64,000 nucleotides of DNA, from positions 1,426,001-1,490,000 of the forward strand of contig JAIQGG010000002.1 in the NCBI GenBank assembly GCA_020072785.1. The letters are read 5' to 3'. Made by a program: the position numbers and the translations under genes. The notes under the pieces are model-generated. The model ran no database searches, was not told where the DNA came from, and saw only the letters and a list, made by a program, of their open reading frames with translations. Shown piece by piece: positions 265-7,924 of the stretch. Within the stretch, counting starts at the first letter, position 1. Each line of letters opens with the position of its first letter. Source of the DNA: Terriglobia bacterium. Lineage in GTDB: Bacteria; Acidobacteriota; Terriglobia; Acidiferrales; UBA7541.

Positions 265-798
265 ATGTTCAAAACCCTGGTGGGTATTGTGCTGGGAGTT
301 CTGCTGGTCGCAGCGGGAGTGGGATTTTACTTCGCTACCGGGCGCGCGCCCGTGGCCGTGACCGACCCGCCGATGCCCTTCGAAAAGAAGCTGGCGAACA
401 TTGCGCTGCACGCCTACATCGAAAAACAGAAGCCGCAGGAGCCGGCCGTGCCCGCCGATGAAAAGAACTATCTGGCGGGTGCGCAGGTTTACAAGCAGAA
501 CTGCGCGGTCTGCCACGGCTTGCCCGGACAGCCGAAAACGGCTATCGCTGAAGGGATGTATCCGTCGCCGCCGCAGTTGTTTCGCGGCATGGGCGTGACG
601 GACGATCCGGCCTTTGAGACCTACATCAAGGCCCGCAACGGCATCCGTATGACGGGCATGCCAGGATTCAAGAGCCACCTGACCGATATTCAGTTGTGGC
701 AGGTCAGCTTGCTGCTGGCCAACGCGGACAAGATTCCTGCTGCGGTCAAATCGGCCCTAGAGCCCGAAGCCGCGCCGCAGAAGCCCGCCGCGCAGTAA
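265..798 (+). CDS. membrane-anchored class I cytochrome c
   Basis: Small electron-carrier protein of 177 aa. Residues 5-25 form one hydrophobic segment, either an uncleaved anchor or a signal peptide, followed by a proline-rich linker to about residue 65. The haem-binding site CAVCH is at residues 80-84, with C80 and C83 for thioether links and H84 as axial ligand. The sixth ligand is probably M129 or M132 in RMTGMPGF. The haem domain should lie on the periplasmic side. The C-terminus is Ala/Pro-rich and looks disordered. It stands alone on +, facing the minus-strand methyltransferase, so no redox partner can be named. Family assignment is secure; the specific pathway is unknown. Confidence 0.88.
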   Translation: MFKTLVGIVLGVLLVAAGVGFYFATGRAPVAVTDPPMPFEKKLANIALHAYIEKQKPQEPAVPADEKNYLAGAQVYKQNCAVCHGLPGQPKTAIAEGMYPSPPQLFRGMGVTDDPAFETYIKARNGIRMTGMPGFKSHLTDIQLWQVSLLLANADKIPAAVKSALEPEAAPQKPAAQ

Positions 799-860: not shown

Positions 861-1595
861 TTAGCGCACCGCCAGCACTTCCGCGGCCAGCACCAGCGGA
901 TGTTTGGTCCGTGCATTGCGCATCTGGCGAAGAATCCTCGCCTGCGCGAAGTTCGCCGCCAGAAATTCCGCGAGGAAAGCGCCGCCTTCCTTGGCTCCGG
1001 CGATTCAGGCAAACCAGTTGCTTTCGCTGGCGCACACTTCGGCGGGCAAAGGCTCGGAGAGGACCAGTTCCGCAGCATAGAGGGCCCCGCCGGGACGCAG
1101 CACGCGCGCCAGTTCACGGAAGATGGCCTCTCGCGCCGGATTCAAGTTGAAGATGCCGTTGACCAGCGCCACGTCGATGGAAGCGTCCCGGAGCGGCAGG
1201 TTCTCCGCCGCCGCCTCGCAGAACAGAACCCGGGAGAGCCCGGCTTCCTCCGCGGCCCGCCGCGCCAGGCTCAGCATCGAACGGCTGAAATCCACACCGA
1301 TTACTCTTCCCGTTGGTCCCGCGCGCCGGGCGGCCACCAGAGCGTCCAACCCCGCCCCGCATCCCACATCCAGAACCGCCGCGCCCTCCGGTATCTCGGC
1401 GCGCACGGAAACATTGGAAACCCCGGTAAACGCCTCGACCACAACCCCTGGCAGTCCCGCCAGTAACTCCTGCGGGTAACCCACGCTTTCCGCGAACGCG
1501 CGGCCCACCGGAAACGCATGCTTCCCCAGCGGATTCTCAGCCGCGACGGAATACGCCTTCCGCACGGCATCCCGAATATCTTCCGAATTTCTCAA
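861..1595 (-). CDS. ArsM-like SAM methyltransferase, probable selenoprotein (in-frame UGA = Sec)
   Basis: Read to the first stop (1005-1007, TGA) this is a 196-aa class I SAM-dependent methyltransferase related to arsenite methyltransferases: motif I VLDVGCGAG at 74-82, an acidic loop VDFSRSM near 101-107, and LRPGG at 166-170. The TGA interrupts NWFA-stop-IAGA, exactly where ArsM-type relatives carry a conserved Cys in a C-x-x-G-A motif. Reading TGA as selenocysteine (residue 197) continues the same frame for 47 more sense codons to TAA at 861-863, giving 244 aa. The added tail (…RNARTKHPLVLAAEVLAVR) looks like the usual end of this family. A hairpin 14-32 nt past the UGA fits a bacterial SECIS. 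The alternative is a nonsense mutation or a sequencing error. The substrate (arsenite or another metalloid) is inferred from family only. Confidence 0.72.
973..991 (-). promoter_or_regulatory. candidate SECIS hairpin after the UGA codon
   Basis: On the coding strand, 13 nt after the UGA at 1005-1007, AGGAA pairs with UUCCU around the 9-nt loop GGCGGCGCU. The loop opens with two G residues, about 18 nt from the UGA, matching the general bacterial SECIS rule of a short stem-loop with G at the loop start. A GC-richer hairpin (CGCC/GGCG plus GCC/GGC with loop AAGGAA) competes in the same bases, so the structure is tentative. Confidence 0.45.
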
Positions 1596-1761: not shown

Positions 1762-2727
1762 TCAGCCGTGCAGGTCGAAGAACTGGCCCATCTTGCGGAA
1801 TTTGTCGTAGCGCTTACGGACCAGGTCCGCGGGCCCAAGCCCGCTCAATAGGGCCAGCTGCCGCTCCAGCACGGTGTCCAGAAACTGCGCCGCCGCTTCG
1901 TGGTCGGTATGCGCGCCGCCTTCGGGTTCGGGCACGATCTCGTCCACAATGCCCATCTCTTTCAGGTCCTTCGCGGTGATTTTCAGCGCCTCGGCCGCGA
2001 TCTCCGCCTTGCTGGAATCGCGCCACATGATGGCCGCGCAGCCCTCCGGCGAAATCACGGAATAGAACCCGTTCTCCAGAATGTTCACGCGATCGCCCAC
2101 GGCGATGGCCAGGGCGCCGCCGGAACCGCCCTCGCCGGTCACGGTCACCAGAATGGGCACGGGCAGCCGCGCCATCTCCCGCAGGTTGCGCGCAATGGCT
2201 TCCGCCTGGCCGCGCTCTTCGGCGTCAATCCCCGGCGAGGCCCCCTGCGTATCCACGAAGCAGAAAACCGGGCGCTGAAACTTGGCGGCCAGTTGCATGA
2301 CCCGCAGCGCCTTGCGGTAACCCTCGGGCTTGGGCTGGCCGAAGTTGTGCAGCACGCGCTGCTTGGTGTCGCGGCCCTTCTGGTGGCCGACGACCGCGAT
2401 GGCCCGCCCGTGATACTTGGCGAAGCCCGCCACGATAGCCTTGTCGTCGCCATACGCGCGGTCGCCATGCAACTCCGTAAACTCCGTGAACAGCAGCCGG
2501 ATAAAATCCTGCGTGTAGGGACGCTGCGGGTGCCGGGCGAGTTGCGCGCGCTGCCACGGCCCCAGGTGCGAATAGAACTCATTCTTCAGTTCGGAGACTT
2601 CGCGCTTCAGGCGCTCGATCTCCGTGTCGCCCGCGCTGTTGGGCGCCAGGCGGCGCAGCTCTTCGACATCCTTTTCGAGCCGTTCGATCTCTTTTTCCCG
2701 TTCGCTCTGCGGCTTCGCTGGTTCCAA
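1762..2727 (-). CDS. accA: acetyl-CoA carboxylase carboxyltransferase, alpha subunit
   Basis: Transfers CO2 from carboxybiotin to acetyl-CoA to form malonyl-CoA, the committed step of fatty acid synthesis, with AccD (not in the window). The TTG start at 2727 gives 321 aa, close to the usual ~320, and has GAGG 7 nt upstream; a GTG at 2814 inside dnaE would add an unlikely basic leader. A short coiled coil spans about residues 8-50. Family motifs follow: HGDRAYGDD (87-95), GQAEAIARN (173-181), the oxyanion loop [10 protein letters not shown] (198-207) and SVISPEGCA (223-231). It starts 38 bp after the dnaE stop, an accA/dnaE neighbourhood seen in many bacteria. Confidence 0.95.
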
Positions 2728-2765
2728 CGTCGTGCCTCGCTTCCCTTCTGGTGTGCCCTGTCCCC

Positions 2766-5700
2766 TCACGCCGCGGCGCTTCCACTCACAAGCTCGATGG
2801 CGTCCGCGCCGCACAGTTCGCTGACCGCCTCAAGCAGTTCCTGCGCCGGGCGGACGCGTTGCGGCACCTGCAGGGTGGCCACGGAGCCGTCCGGCGAGCG
2901 CAGCTCAAAGACGACCACACAGGAGCCCGGGTTGCTCGCGAACAACTGCTGCAGGCTTTCGAGCGACCTTTCGCTCAGCTGCGCCAGGTCCAGCCGCAGG
3001 CGCATCTGCGCCGGCTGGCGCTCCCCCAGCCCGGCCAGCGGCCGAGCCTCCAGCAGCGAAAGCCGCGTCCCGGCCTCTTCTACCTGCACGCGGGCCTTCA
3101 ACAGCAGCGGCGTCCCGGCCTTCAGCACGGTTTCCAGGCGCGCAAAGCTTTCCGGAAACACCAGCAACTCCTGGACGCCGGTCATGTCCTGCAGGGTGAA
3201 GATACCCCACCGCTGCCCTTTTTTCGAGCGCATCGGGCGCGTGCCCACGATCAACCCCGCCACGGTAATCTCCGCGCGATTGCGATGCTGCTCGACCGCT
3301 TCCAGCGGCACGACTTTCAGTTCCTGCAGCCGCGCGGCGTATTTTTCCAGCGGGTGGCCAGAAACGTAGAAGCCCAGCATCGCGTACTCGCTGGCCAGCC
3401 GCTCCTCTTCGCTCCACAGCGGGGCGTCGCGCAGTTCCAGCGGCGCAGCAGCCGGCGCCGCCGCGCCCCCGAAGAGGCCGTGTTGCCCGGATTCGCGCAG
3501 CCGCGCGGCACGCTGGAGCGCGCTGAGCGCATCGTCCACGGAAGCCAGGAGTTGCTCCCGCGGCCCCAGCGAATCCATGGCCCCGGACTTGATGAGGCTC
3601 TCGAAGACGCGCTTGTTCAAGACGCGCGAATCGATGCGTTCGCAGAAATCGTAAAGACTGCGAAACGCGCCCTGCCGGATCACCGTGTCGCGGATGGCGC
3701 GCGCGCTGTTCTCCCCGACGTTCTTGATGGCCGCCAGGCCGAAGCGCACAGCCTCGCCCACGGGAGTGAAGTACAGATCGCTCTCGTTGATGTCCGGGGG
3801 CAGCACGGTGATGCCCATGCCACGCGCTTCGTTGATGTACTTCACCACCTTTTCGGTGTTCCCGGTTTCCGAGGTCAGCAGCGCGGCCATGAACTCGACC
3901 GGGTAGTGCGTCTTGAGATAGGCGATCTGGTAGGCCAGCAGGGCGTAGGCGCAGGAGTGCGATTTATTGAAACCGTAGCCCGCGAATTCGGCCATCAAAT
4001 CAAATATGCGCTCGGCTTTTTTCTCCGGGATCTTGTTGGCGCGGCAACCGCCCATGAACTTTGCCCGTTGCGCCGCCATCTCTTCTTTTTTCTTCTTGCC
4101 CATGGCCCGGCGCAGGATGTCCGCTTCGCCGAGCGAGAAGCCGGCAAGGCGGTTGGCGATCTGCATCACCTGTTCCTGGTACAGGATGACGCCGTAGGTC
4201 TCCTCGAGGATCTCCTTGAGCTGCGGCAGCTCGAAGGTCACGCGCGTCTTCCCCTGCTTGCGGTTGATGAAGTCGTCGATCATGCCGCCCTGGATGGGGC
4301 CGGGACGGTAGAGGGCGTTCAGCGCCGTCAGGTCCTCGATGCGCGCGGGCTGGTAACGGCGCAGAATGTCGCGCATGCCGTGGGATTCGAACTGGAAGAT
4401 GGCCGTGGTTTCCCCGCGCGCGAAGAGCTTGTAGGTGTCCGCGTCATCCAGAACCAGCGCGTCGATGTCCAGCTGGACGCCCCGGTTCTGCTCCACCATG
4501 CGCACCGCGTCGTGCAGCACGGTGAGCGTGGTCAGTCCGAGGAAATCCATCTTCAGCAGGCCGACGCGCTCGAGCGCGTTCATGTCGTACTGCGTGGTGA
4601 TTTCGTCGCGGTTCGTCTTGTAGACGGGGACGATGTCGGTGAGCGGCCGCGGAGAGATGACCACGCCGGCGGCGTGTGTGGAAGCATGCCGCGAGAGGCC
4701 CTCGAGGCGCTGCGCCACCGCCATCAGCTCCTTCATGCGCTCGTCGCTCTCGACCGCCGAGCGCAACTGCGCGGATTGCTCCAGTGCGCTCTCCAGCGTG
4801 ATCTTCAGCTCGTTGGGCACCAGCTTAGCCACGCGGTCCACGTCTCCGTAAGGGATGTCCATGGCCCGCCCGACGTCCTTGATCGCGGCCTTGGCGGCCA
4901 TGGTCCCGAAGGTGATGATCTGCGCCACGTTCTCCCGCCCGTACTTCCGCGTGACGTAATCGATCACCTCTCCGCGCCGCCGCATGCAGAAGTCTATGTC
5001 GATATCCGGCATGGAGACGCGCTCAGGATTCAGGAAGCGCTCGAACAGCAAATCGTACTGCAGCGGGTCCACGTCCGTAATGCGCAGCGCGTAGCTCACC
5101 AGGCTCCCGGCCGCCGAGCCGCGCCCCGGGCCCACGGGCACCTCCTGGCCCCGCGCGTAGTGGATGAAGTCCCAGACGATCAGGAAGTAGCCTGCAAACT
5201 TCATCTTCTTGATCATCTCGATTTCGCTGGTCAGCCGCCGCTCATATTCCTCGAGGGGGTGGCGCAGCGCGCCCTGCTTGGAAATCTTCTCGAGCGCCGG
5301 AACGCGCGCGGCAAAGCCCTGGCGTACGACCTTTTCGAAATAGCTGTCCGGGGTGTCGCTCGCGGGCACCTGAAAGGCCGGAAACGGATCGGCGATCTTT
5401 GCGATTTTGACATTGCAGCGCTCGGCCACGTCCAGTGTGCGGCTCAGCGCCTCGGGCAGCTCGGCGAAGACGCGGGCCATCTCTTCCGCCGTCTTGTAAT
5501 AGAACTGGTCGGTGGCGAACTTCATGCGGTGCGCATCGCTCATGGTCTTGCCCGTCTGAATGCACAGCAGGACCTCCTGCGCGTGCGCATCGTCGTGATG
5601 CAGGTAGTGGCAATCGTTGGTGGCGATCAGCGGAATGCCGGAATCCTTGGAGAGCCGCAGCAGGTCGCGGTTGACGCTCGTTTCCACCTCCAGGCCCTGG

Positions 5701-6278
5701 TCTTGAATCTCCAGGAAGAAATTGCCCTTGCCGAAAATCTCCTGCAGGCGGTGGGCGTTGGCCAGCCCTTCCTTGTAGCGCTCCTCCATCACCGCTTCGG
5801 TTACCGCGCCGCGCAGGCAGGCGGAGAGTGCGATGAGTCCGCGGCTATGCTTGGCGAGCAGTTCGTAGTCGATGCGCGGCTTGTAGTAGAAACCCTCGAG
5901 GAAGCCAGCGGAAACCAGCTGGATCAGGTTTTGGTAGCCCTCGTTCGATTCACACAGCAGCAGCAGGTGATTGCTGCCGCGCATCCCGGGTTCGGCCTCG
6001 CCACGGGTCTGCGCATCCCCCGAACTGTTCTTCTCGCCGCGCTCATGCCGGCTGCCCTTCGCTACATAGACCTCGCAGCCGATGATCGGTTTCACGCCGT
6101 GCTTGCCCGCTTCGTTGTAAAAATTGGCGGCGGCGAAGAGATTCCCGTGATCCGTAACGGCCACCGCGGGCACGGAACGCTTCGCTGTTTCCTCCAGCAA
6201 CTCGGAGATCTGGCAAGCGCCGTCGAGCAGGCTGAAATCCGTGTGCACGTGAAGATGGACGAACTGCGGTTGACCCAT
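2766..6278 (-). CDS. dnaE: DNA polymerase III alpha subunit (DnaE type)
   Basis: Replicative polymerase, 1170 aa from the ATG at 6278, which places the PHP motif [13 protein letters not shown] at residues 8-20 as in other DnaE proteins; longer frames upstream only add basic filler. The PHP domain (residues 1 to ~280) keeps HLHVHTD, so it may retain metal binding. The palm domain has the catalytic acidic motif PDIDIDF near residues 422-430. A helix-hairpin-helix ([16 protein letters not shown]) lies near 845-860 and an OB fold near 1005-1080, followed by a tau-binding-like C-terminus. There is no separate 3'-5' exonuclease domain of PolC type. A perfect DnaA-box sequence lies 46 bp upstream of the start. 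Confidence 0.97.
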
Positions 6279-6323
6279 AGCTTTCGATTCTAAATCGCTC
6301 CTCCCTGTTTTGCGACCCCGCGC

Positions 6324-6332
6324 TGTGGATAA
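6324..6332 (-). promoter_or_regulatory. single DnaA-box sequence upstream of dnaE
   Basis: TTATCCACA on the minus strand (TGTGGATAA on +) matches the consensus DnaA box exactly. It lies between the nucleotidyltransferase stop and the dnaE start. It could let DnaA tune dnaE expression, but one isolated 9-mer also occurs by chance. Confidence 0.3.
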
Positions 6333-6360
6333 CGGGCGCGCTCCGCGGCCGCAGATTTCC

Positions 6361-7842
6361 TTACTTGTGCCCGCTGTGCTTTTTCGCCGGCTTTGGCTTT
6401 TTCGCTGTTGCGGGCGCCTTCTTCCCTGCCGTCTTTCCGGCCGGCTTGGCCGGCGGCGTCGCAGCCTTCGCATGGGATTTCAACGCCGGCACCGGCGCAT
6501 GGCTTTTTACCAGAGCCTTGCCCATTTTCTTTCTCTTCTCTTCCTTTTTCGGCGCTTCCTTGATGCCCGAAAGCTTGCGCAGCACCTTGACGCGATCCTC
6601 CGGCGTCTTGCCGCGGCCGGTCAGCTGCAGGGCGAAGAACTGCTCGATGACGGCATCAAATTTGGGGCCGCGCGGCATGCCGATGGCCTCAAGTTCCGCC
6701 ACCGCCGAAGGAAGCGCGGCGCGCAGCGGCCGCCACTTCTGCAGATACGCGCGAATCTTGGAGAGCGCCTTGGAGTTCGAGGACTCGGCCATCAGATAGG
6801 CGATCTGCTCGAGGGGAACCTTTTCGAGAAAGTGGTAGGCGTCCACCGGGGCGTGGCACTTGCGCCCCGCTAATTCCTTCTGTACGCGCCGAGCCGTGCC
6901 TTCGAGCCCCAGCGAGGCCGTGACTTCTGTCTGCCGGAAGCCCACCTTGGCCAGCAGCGCGTGCTGCTCGCGCGATCTCAGCCGTCCCAGAATCGCCAGG
7001 AGCATGGGGTTGGCCAGCCGCGGACGCAGCCCAGCGTTGAAGAGATCCTCACGGACCCGGGAGAGGCGCGCAATGGCCTCGTAATCGGGATGGCGTTTCG
7101 CCAGATGGGGATGGATGGCTTCGAGGATTCCGTGCGTTTCCCAGGTTTTCAGGACGGATGTGGGTCGTTCCTCGCGGGCGACGGCTCGCAGTTCCTCGCC
7201 GGCGTCCTCCGGAGTGATGGAGTGGTGCAGATCGCGTTCCAGCGCCAGGGCGAACCACTCCTGCGTGCGCTGCTCAAGTTTGAAACCCATGCGCGCCGCA
7301 TAGCGCAACGCGCGCAGCAGGCGCACCGGCTGGTTGGTGAAAGAGTGGATAGTCAGGGCCCGAATCTCGCCGCGCTCGATGTCCGAGAGTCCGTTCGCCG
7401 GGTCCAGCAAAAGCCCGCGCGAAGCCGGATTCAGAGAGATGGCGATGGCGTTGAGGGAAAAGTCGCGGCGGCGCAGGTCCTCCATGATCGTGGACCAACG
7501 ATATTCCGGACGCGTGCCGGGGCGCACGTAATAGTCGTCGCGCGCCGCGGAGAGGCTCCCCTCGCAGTCGCCGGAGAAGAGCAGTTCGACGTGGCGCATC
7601 CGCTCGTCTTCGTGAACAATCTGGGCGCCTCCCTTCTCCAGCTCCCGCGCCATCTTCAGCGGATTGCCCTCGACCGTAAAGTCGAGATCCCGGAGCGTCG
7701 CCCCGGTGATCAGATCGCGTACCGTGCCGCCCGTCAGGTAAACGTTGCAGCCTAAAGCGGCGGCCAGCTCCTGCACGCGCAGCATTGCCGCGCGCTGCTC
7801 CGGCAAGAGCCGGCTTTCCAGCAAGAACATGTAATCGGGCAT
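6361..7842 (-). CDS. CCA tRNA nucleotidyltransferase / poly(A) polymerase family, with histone-like tail
   Basis: Class II nucleotidyltransferase that adds or repairs the tRNA 3' CCA end, or adds poly(A). The ATG at 7842 (GAGGAG 4 nt upstream) gives 493 aa. The catalytic head has GGTVRD at 38-43 with metal-binding D52 and D54 in LRDLDF. RRDFSLNA (125-132) and RLLRALRYAARMGF (174-187) are typical nucleotide-template and neck motifs. An all-helical body follows. The last 64 residues (430-493) are an unusual Lys/Ala/Pro-rich, low-complexity tail, probably a non-specific nucleic-acid binding extension. CCA-adding and poly(A)-adding members cannot be separated from sequence alone here. Confidence 0.88.
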   Translation of the reverse strand: MPDYMFLLESRLLPEQRAAMLRVQELAAALGCNVYLTGGTVRDLITGATLRDLDFTVEGNPLKMARELEKGGAQIVHEDERMRHVELLFSGDCEGSLSAARDDYYVRPGTRPEYRWSTIMEDLRRRDFSLNAIAISLNPASRGLLLDPANGLSDIERGEIRALTIHSFTNQPVRLLRALRYAARMGFKLEQRTQEWFALALERDLHHSITPEDAGEELRAVAREERPTSVLKTWETHGILEAIHPHLAKRHPDYEAIARLSRVREDLFNAGLRPRLANPMLLAILGRLRSREQHALLAKVGFRQTEVTASLGLEGTARRVQKELAGRKCHAPVDAYHFLEKVPLEQIAYLMAESSNSKALSKIRAYLQKWRPLRAALPSAVAELEAIGMPRGPKFDAVIEQFFALQLTGRGKTPEDRVKVLRKLSGIKEAPKKEEKRKKMGKALVKSHAPVPALKSHAKAATPPAKPAGKTAGKKAPATAKKPKPAKKHSGHK

Positions 7843-7924
7843 TGCTCTCCTCGCCTCCGGGGTCTCCGGCACAGCGCTGCCGTGCCCCCAATCAATCTCC
7901 CCAGGGTCCGTGCTTCGCGCCCCT

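Follow-up and report, generated by a model that had tools for sequence, protein, structure and literature searches.

Does an in-frame TGA in a methyltransferase gene of a soil acidobacterium end the protein, or is it read as selenocysteine (Sec), and what might such an enzyme methylate? We examined this question for the minus-strand frame 1595-861 of the window, the whole stretch of 64,000 nucleotides that was analysed. The explanation that we favour, with a probability of about 0.87, is that the gene encodes a selenoprotein, namely a class I SAM methyltransferase of the ArsM superfamily that would grip a soft substrate through a single selenolate.

Gene, reading frame and surroundings

Translation of 861-1595 gave 244 residues with one in-frame TGA at codon 197, right behind NWFA, followed by 47 codons that begin IAGAKEGGAFL and run to the TAA. 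This agrees with the frame described in the original prediction, which also expected a gene caller to truncate the protein; the table-11 call for this frame indeed ends at 196 aa. The start codon is TTG, and the orthologue from a genome of the same genus (G007) has ATG at that position. Pfam placed the protein among the class I methyltransferases. The features of the gene and its surroundings are as follows.

861-1595, minus strand: coding sequence of the putative selenoprotein methyltransferase, 244 aa plus stop (TTG 1595, predicted Sec 197, TAA 863-861), with full-length orthologues
1005-1007, minus strand: UGA (1007-1005) predicted to be read as selenocysteine, residue 197, at the position of CmArsM Cys224; of 80 public homologues, 75 have TGA here and four have Cys
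957-1002, minus strand: SECIS-like stem-loop within the coding sequence, apical stem 991-973, loop GGC 983-981, from pairing and a synonymous-site signal at the family level
861-1004, minus strand: tail after the UGA, 47 codons plus TAA, with a predicted helix (204-213) and core beta strands (218-225, 235-243), from AlphaFold2 and dN/dS
903-920, minus strand: tail motif RNARTK (226-231), clade-diagnostic, with N227 and R229 invariant in 63 aligned members
1344-1364, minus strand: SAM-binding motif I, GCGAGLD (78-84), assigned by sequence
1137-1160, minus strand: NGIFNLNP (146-153), with G147 at the As-binding Cys174 site of canonical ArsM in the alignment
1413-1427, minus strand: TGVSN (57-61), with V59 at the As-binding Cys72 (GCGNP) site of canonical ArsM in the alignment
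1762-2814, minus strand: accA-like gene, upstream on the same strand, assigned by sequence; the same neighbour in G007
265-798, plus strand: c-type cytochrome-like gene (CAVCH motif), convergent, assigned by sequence; the same neighbour in G007

The accA-like gene probably has no functional tie to the methyltransferase gene. Rfam gave no matches near the gene, and a search for promoter-like signals at it found none. Elsewhere in the window, a tRNA nucleotidyltransferase-like protein (6361-7872, minus strand) carries a long C-terminal tail rich in Lys, Ala and Pro.

Decoding of the UGA codon

Family searches of the host genome, which is 98.9% complete, returned SelA (556 bits), SelB (356 bits), SelD (349 bits) and tRNA-Sec, so that all the genes named for checking in the original prediction were found. 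The host SelD is itself a selenoprotein with an in-frame UGA in ...KAAGUAAK... (L076), which we take to be the usual Sec site of SelD. Two tRNA-Sec genes lie 3.6 kb apart (L039, 7065-7159 and 10714-10808) with a large lipoprotein-like gene between them. One copy, with anticodon TCA, matches at 87 of 99 positions and has broken pairs in the variable arm and the anticodon stem; this second copy looks like a decaying duplicate. In the class sample, selA was present in all 16 genomes that carry the methyltransferase gene versus 290 of 399 overall (chance about 0.6% by simple multiplication), and because the genomes are related, this co-occurrence lends modest support only.

We next considered the codon in relatives of the gene. 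The G007 orthologue is 92% identical, has the TGA too and is flanked by the same genes. Of 399 genomes searched across the class, 16 (host included) yielded full-length orthologues, each with one TGA; whether close relatives stop at the UGA had been posed as a check, and none does, since G007 and 14 other class genomes are full-length. One class genome (G179; C21 and C77) holds two copies of the gene. When public genomes were scanned with a profile built solely from residues before the UGA, the scan returned 80 loci from more than ten phyla (Acidobacteriota, Chloroflexota, Myxococcota, Planctomycetota, Methylomirabilota, Nitrospirota, Verrucomicrobiota, Actinomycetota, Eremiobacterota and others), many of the homologues deriving from metagenome-assembled genomes. 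The codon at this site was TGA in 75 loci, TGC or TGT (Cys) in four and truncated in one, and a TGA at one codon in 75 of 80 homologues rules out chance. The idea that the UGA takes the place of a conserved Cys is borne out by these four Cys homologues and by the alignment of U197 with C224 of CmArsM. Plasmid matches were distant only, with at most 42% identity among the matches listed.

The tail was compared between the host and G007. Eight tail codons differed, five of them synonymously, and dN/dS was 0.043/0.240 after the UGA versus 0.045/0.289 before it; across the family, third codon positions hold most of the tail differences. Judged by these substitution patterns, the tail is under purifying selection. 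An AlphaFold2 model with Cys placed at 197 had a mean pLDDT of 93.9 and folded the tail into a single helix plus the two final strands of the core sheet, indicating that a 196-residue product would lack these parts of the predicted fold. The downstream peptide had been called family-like, and the relatives read through the UGA with a conserved tail.

For the hairpin, the results showed an 8-bp apical stem in the window, located 3' of the UGA, with a loop that starts 21 nt past the UGA and has G at its first two positions, as in a bacterial SECIS element. The original prediction had a G-opening hairpin at about 18 nt; the hairpin is real, and the evidence for it lies at the family level. It is common to the Sec members, with the loop 20-21 nt after the UGA. 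Across 76 Sec sequences, 90% of the cells for the eight stem pairs were standard pairs versus 50-66% with the partner slid by 1-3 nt, and the four Cys homologues retained one or two of the eight pairs. Measured against synonymous recodings that follow the codon usage of the respective gene, stability gave a mean z of -1.37 for the 76 sequences (Stouffer -11.9, for sequences that are not independent); control windows of the same genes gave z from -0.38 to +0.08, and Cys homologues were near 0 in three of four. The window hairpin by itself had no extra stability over alternative synonymous codings of its peptide (z = +0.2), so its support comes from the family and not from the window alone.

These comparative sequence findings make selenocysteine at codon 197 a very well supported reading: the Sec machinery, the conserved UGA, the Cys counterparts and the read-through relatives all agree with the probable selenoprotein that had been proposed. 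A true stop, with a 196-residue methyltransferase and a decaying remnant behind it, would suit the table-11 call and the non-significant hairpin of the window; it is very improbable, however, given a tail whose dN/dS is near that of the rest of the gene, which is conserved with the UGA across more than ten phyla and supplies two core strands of the predicted fold, and given a sister clade with Cys at the UGA position. Decoding as another residue, either Cys by a special tRNA or Trp, could draw on the degenerate tRNA-Sec-like gene with anticodon TCA and on the Cys of the sister proteins. Against it stand the complete Sec pathway, including a SelD with its own UGA, and a SECIS-like hairpin that goes with the UGA and is absent from the Cys homologues; UGA is also a stop here, because other genes of the region end in TGA. 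We regard such decoding, too, as highly improbable. That the TGA is a Cys codon miscalled in sequencing or assembly is scarcely credible: nothing was found in support of this, and the same TGA occurs in the independent assembly of a second species and in 75 of the 80 homologues.

Arsenic ligands and the proposed function

A maximum-likelihood tree of 78 proteins united the Sec proteins of the present type in one group, clade A (SH-aLRT 99), whose sister group consists of the Cys homologues, four in number (100). Canonical ArsM and a further group of Sec proteins, clade B (91), fell outside. The signatures of clade A are NGIFNLNP and the tail motif RNARTK. The closest solved structures were CmArsM and CrArsM (4fr0, 6cx6, 5evj; Z 25.8, rmsd 1.8-1.9 over 200-204 residues), and the predicted fold is that of a class I SAM methyltransferase nearest ArsM. 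In the alignment with CmArsM, U197 corresponds to C224, V59 to C72 and G147 to C174, so that only the third of the three ligand sites is kept, as Sec. The canonical ArsM proteins of these genomes have all three cysteines (8/8); only the C224 site remains in clades A and B and in the Cys sister group. Both C72 and C174 are lost in 59/59 clade A Sec members of the tree and in all clade B Sec relatives found. The motif changes that had been pointed out, GCGNP to TGVSN and the Cys of C-x-x-G-A to UGA, are present, the canonical CIAGA appearing here as UIAGA. The accompanying claim that Sec would be the main thiol-like residue left near the active site held for the missing GCGNP Cys and did not go far enough, as C174 is gone too.

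The loss of C72 and C174 makes "arsenite methyltransferase" doubtful as the function. The C174A and C224A mutants of CmArsM have no activity towards either inorganic As(III) or methylarsenite (PMC3877260), and methylation uses three cysteines in the first step and two in the second, dimethylarsenite being bound by one (PMC3877260). These mutants and the lost ligands suggest that the protein would not run the normal arsenite cycle and would instead use its single selenolate on a soft substrate that needs one ligand. In the proposed mechanism, SelB and tRNA-Sec would insert Sec at the UGA, aided by the stem-loop just 3' of it, to give a 244-residue stand-alone enzyme in which Sec197 would replace the catalytic Cys224 of ArsM. 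Since the other two As(III) ligands are missing throughout the clade, the selenolate is probably the sole soft ligand for the substrate, and it may hold one substrate atom beside the SAM methyl group. By fold topology, the invariant RN-R motif would sit in the loop joining the two final strands, at the substrate-pocket side of the class I fold, and probably completes the pocket. The enzyme would use SAM to methylate a soft nucleophile for which one ligand suffices. The most likely candidate substrates are a dimethylated trivalent arsenical, other metalloid or organometal species, and a selenol or thiol; inorganic arsenite, for whose methylation ArsM requires three cysteines, is an unlikely one.

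An ordinary ArsM, in which Sec merely replaces Cys224 and improves arsenic methylation, has several points in its favour. By fold and sequence the nearest relatives are ArsM enzymes, one homologue (L117) lies near a canonical ArsM gene and another (L113) beside an ArsR-type regulator, and NCBI names related Sec families arsenite methyltransferase. In addition, PMC10190100 reports As(III) methylation by ArsRM through non-cysteine ligands, which leaves some room for arsenite as the substrate. We nevertheless consider an ordinary ArsM unlikely, at roughly one chance in four, because C72 and C174 are missing from every Sec member found, CmArsM C174A is dead on inorganic arsenite and methylarsenite (PMC3877260), the host genome already encodes a canonical ArsM (C2:62509), and the protein scores 166 bits against the cut-off of 263 for the NCBIfam arsenite methyltransferase model NF008823. 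The broader form of our preferred reading, a large unnamed selenoenzyme family in which one selenolate without partner cysteines holds and methylates a substrate other than inorganic arsenite, is more tentative, and we give it a little less than even odds.

The neighbours of the 80 loci were clustered, with about 50 of them scanned against Pfam. The results showed heterogeneous neighbours (LysR, nucleoside phosphorylase, MerT, ArsR, ZIP, GRDB and others) that indicate no substrate. A divergent LysR-family regulator lies directly upstream at eight loci (L087, L128, L145, L146, L148, L155, L156, L158), mainly from Planctomycetota and Eremiobacterota. At ten Acidobacteriota loci (L100, L121, L137, L138, L139, L147 and others), the methyltransferase gene has a nucleoside phosphorylase-like gene (PF01048) nearby, which might remove SAH-type by-products. 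The metal-related neighbours (MerT, ArsR, ZIP) are too scattered to argue for an arsenic or mercury operon. In the genus, selA lies close to canonical arsM, which looks like ordinary conserved order among housekeeping genes. Two Chloroflexi genomes carry a clade A gene followed directly on the same strand by a clade B Sec methyltransferase with LWTAUIGGA (L120, about 5730-6550; L124, about 3739-4560). In G047 (L169, 4823-9545), a clade B Sec methyltransferase adjoins selB and selA on the opposite strand, and a Nitrospira genome has a GRDB-like (glycine reductase selenoprotein B) frame near the gene (L113, 2643-3194).

Most known selenoproteins are thought to work in redox chemistry. Here, since every Sec member found lacks C72 and C174, the prediction is that inorganic arsenite is not their substrate and that the selenium takes part in a different methyl transfer. 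If this were true for all Sec ArsM-like proteins, the label "arsenite methyltransferase" of the named Sec families would be wrong, and a separate Se-dependent methylation chemistry would be common in bacteria of soil, groundwater and sediment. Because standard gene callers stop at the UGA, losing the catalytic residue as well as the C-terminal part of the fold, the annotation of a widespread selenoenzyme clade is wrong. Biochemists working on selenium or on arsenic would take an interest in a Sec methyltransferase that has a single chalcogen ligand.

Comparison with known ArsM-type selenoproteins

The best NCBIfam models for residues 5-224 were NF041537 (197 bits, cut-off 510), NF047649 (190 bits, cut-off 460) and NF041536 (162 bits, cut-off 575). 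The protein belongs to a distinct, strongly supported clade beneath every NCBIfam cut-off, a widespread unnamed branch of ArsM-like selenoproteins; a search of the phylum sample for NF041537 members gave none above the cut-off. Haft and Tolstoy reportedly defined several related families in 2025. PMC13188914 (UxxG motif), PMC9312934 and PMC5029168 list arsenite methyltransferase selenoproteins, and PMC2398784 also reports them. An ArsM-type selenoprotein with UxxG is therefore of a kind already published and not new in kind, whereas the literature searched contains no description of this clade, how widely it occurs, its tail motif or the disappearance of C72 together with C174 from every Sec relative found.

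Compared with the UxxG arsenite methyltransferase selenoprotein (NF008823/PRK11873), our protein is likewise an ArsM-like SAM methyltransferase with one Sec in UxxG (here UIAG) at the Cys224 position, but it scores below that cut-off, falls in a separate clade with the RNARTK tail and itself lacks C72 and C174. The UxxG Sec motif is also common to NF041537 (ArsM_AhpD_UU), NF047649 (MTase_UXPK_star) and NF041536 (ArsM_DUF2284_UU); these, however, are fusions with a second domain and two to three Sec, whereas our protein has no second domain and ends after its single methyltransferase domain. Clade B (L011, L063-L065, L067; relatives L161-L166) shares the UIAGA Sec site, the loss of C72 and C174 and the single domain, and differs in a tail without RNARTK and in SNGV(I/L)NL instead of NGIFNLNP. 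CmArsM and CrArsM share the fold and the Sec/Cys224 position; CmArsM has Cys72, Cys174, Cys224 and a further C-terminal part, whereas the selenoprotein has V59, G147 and the predicted Sec197 and no such part.
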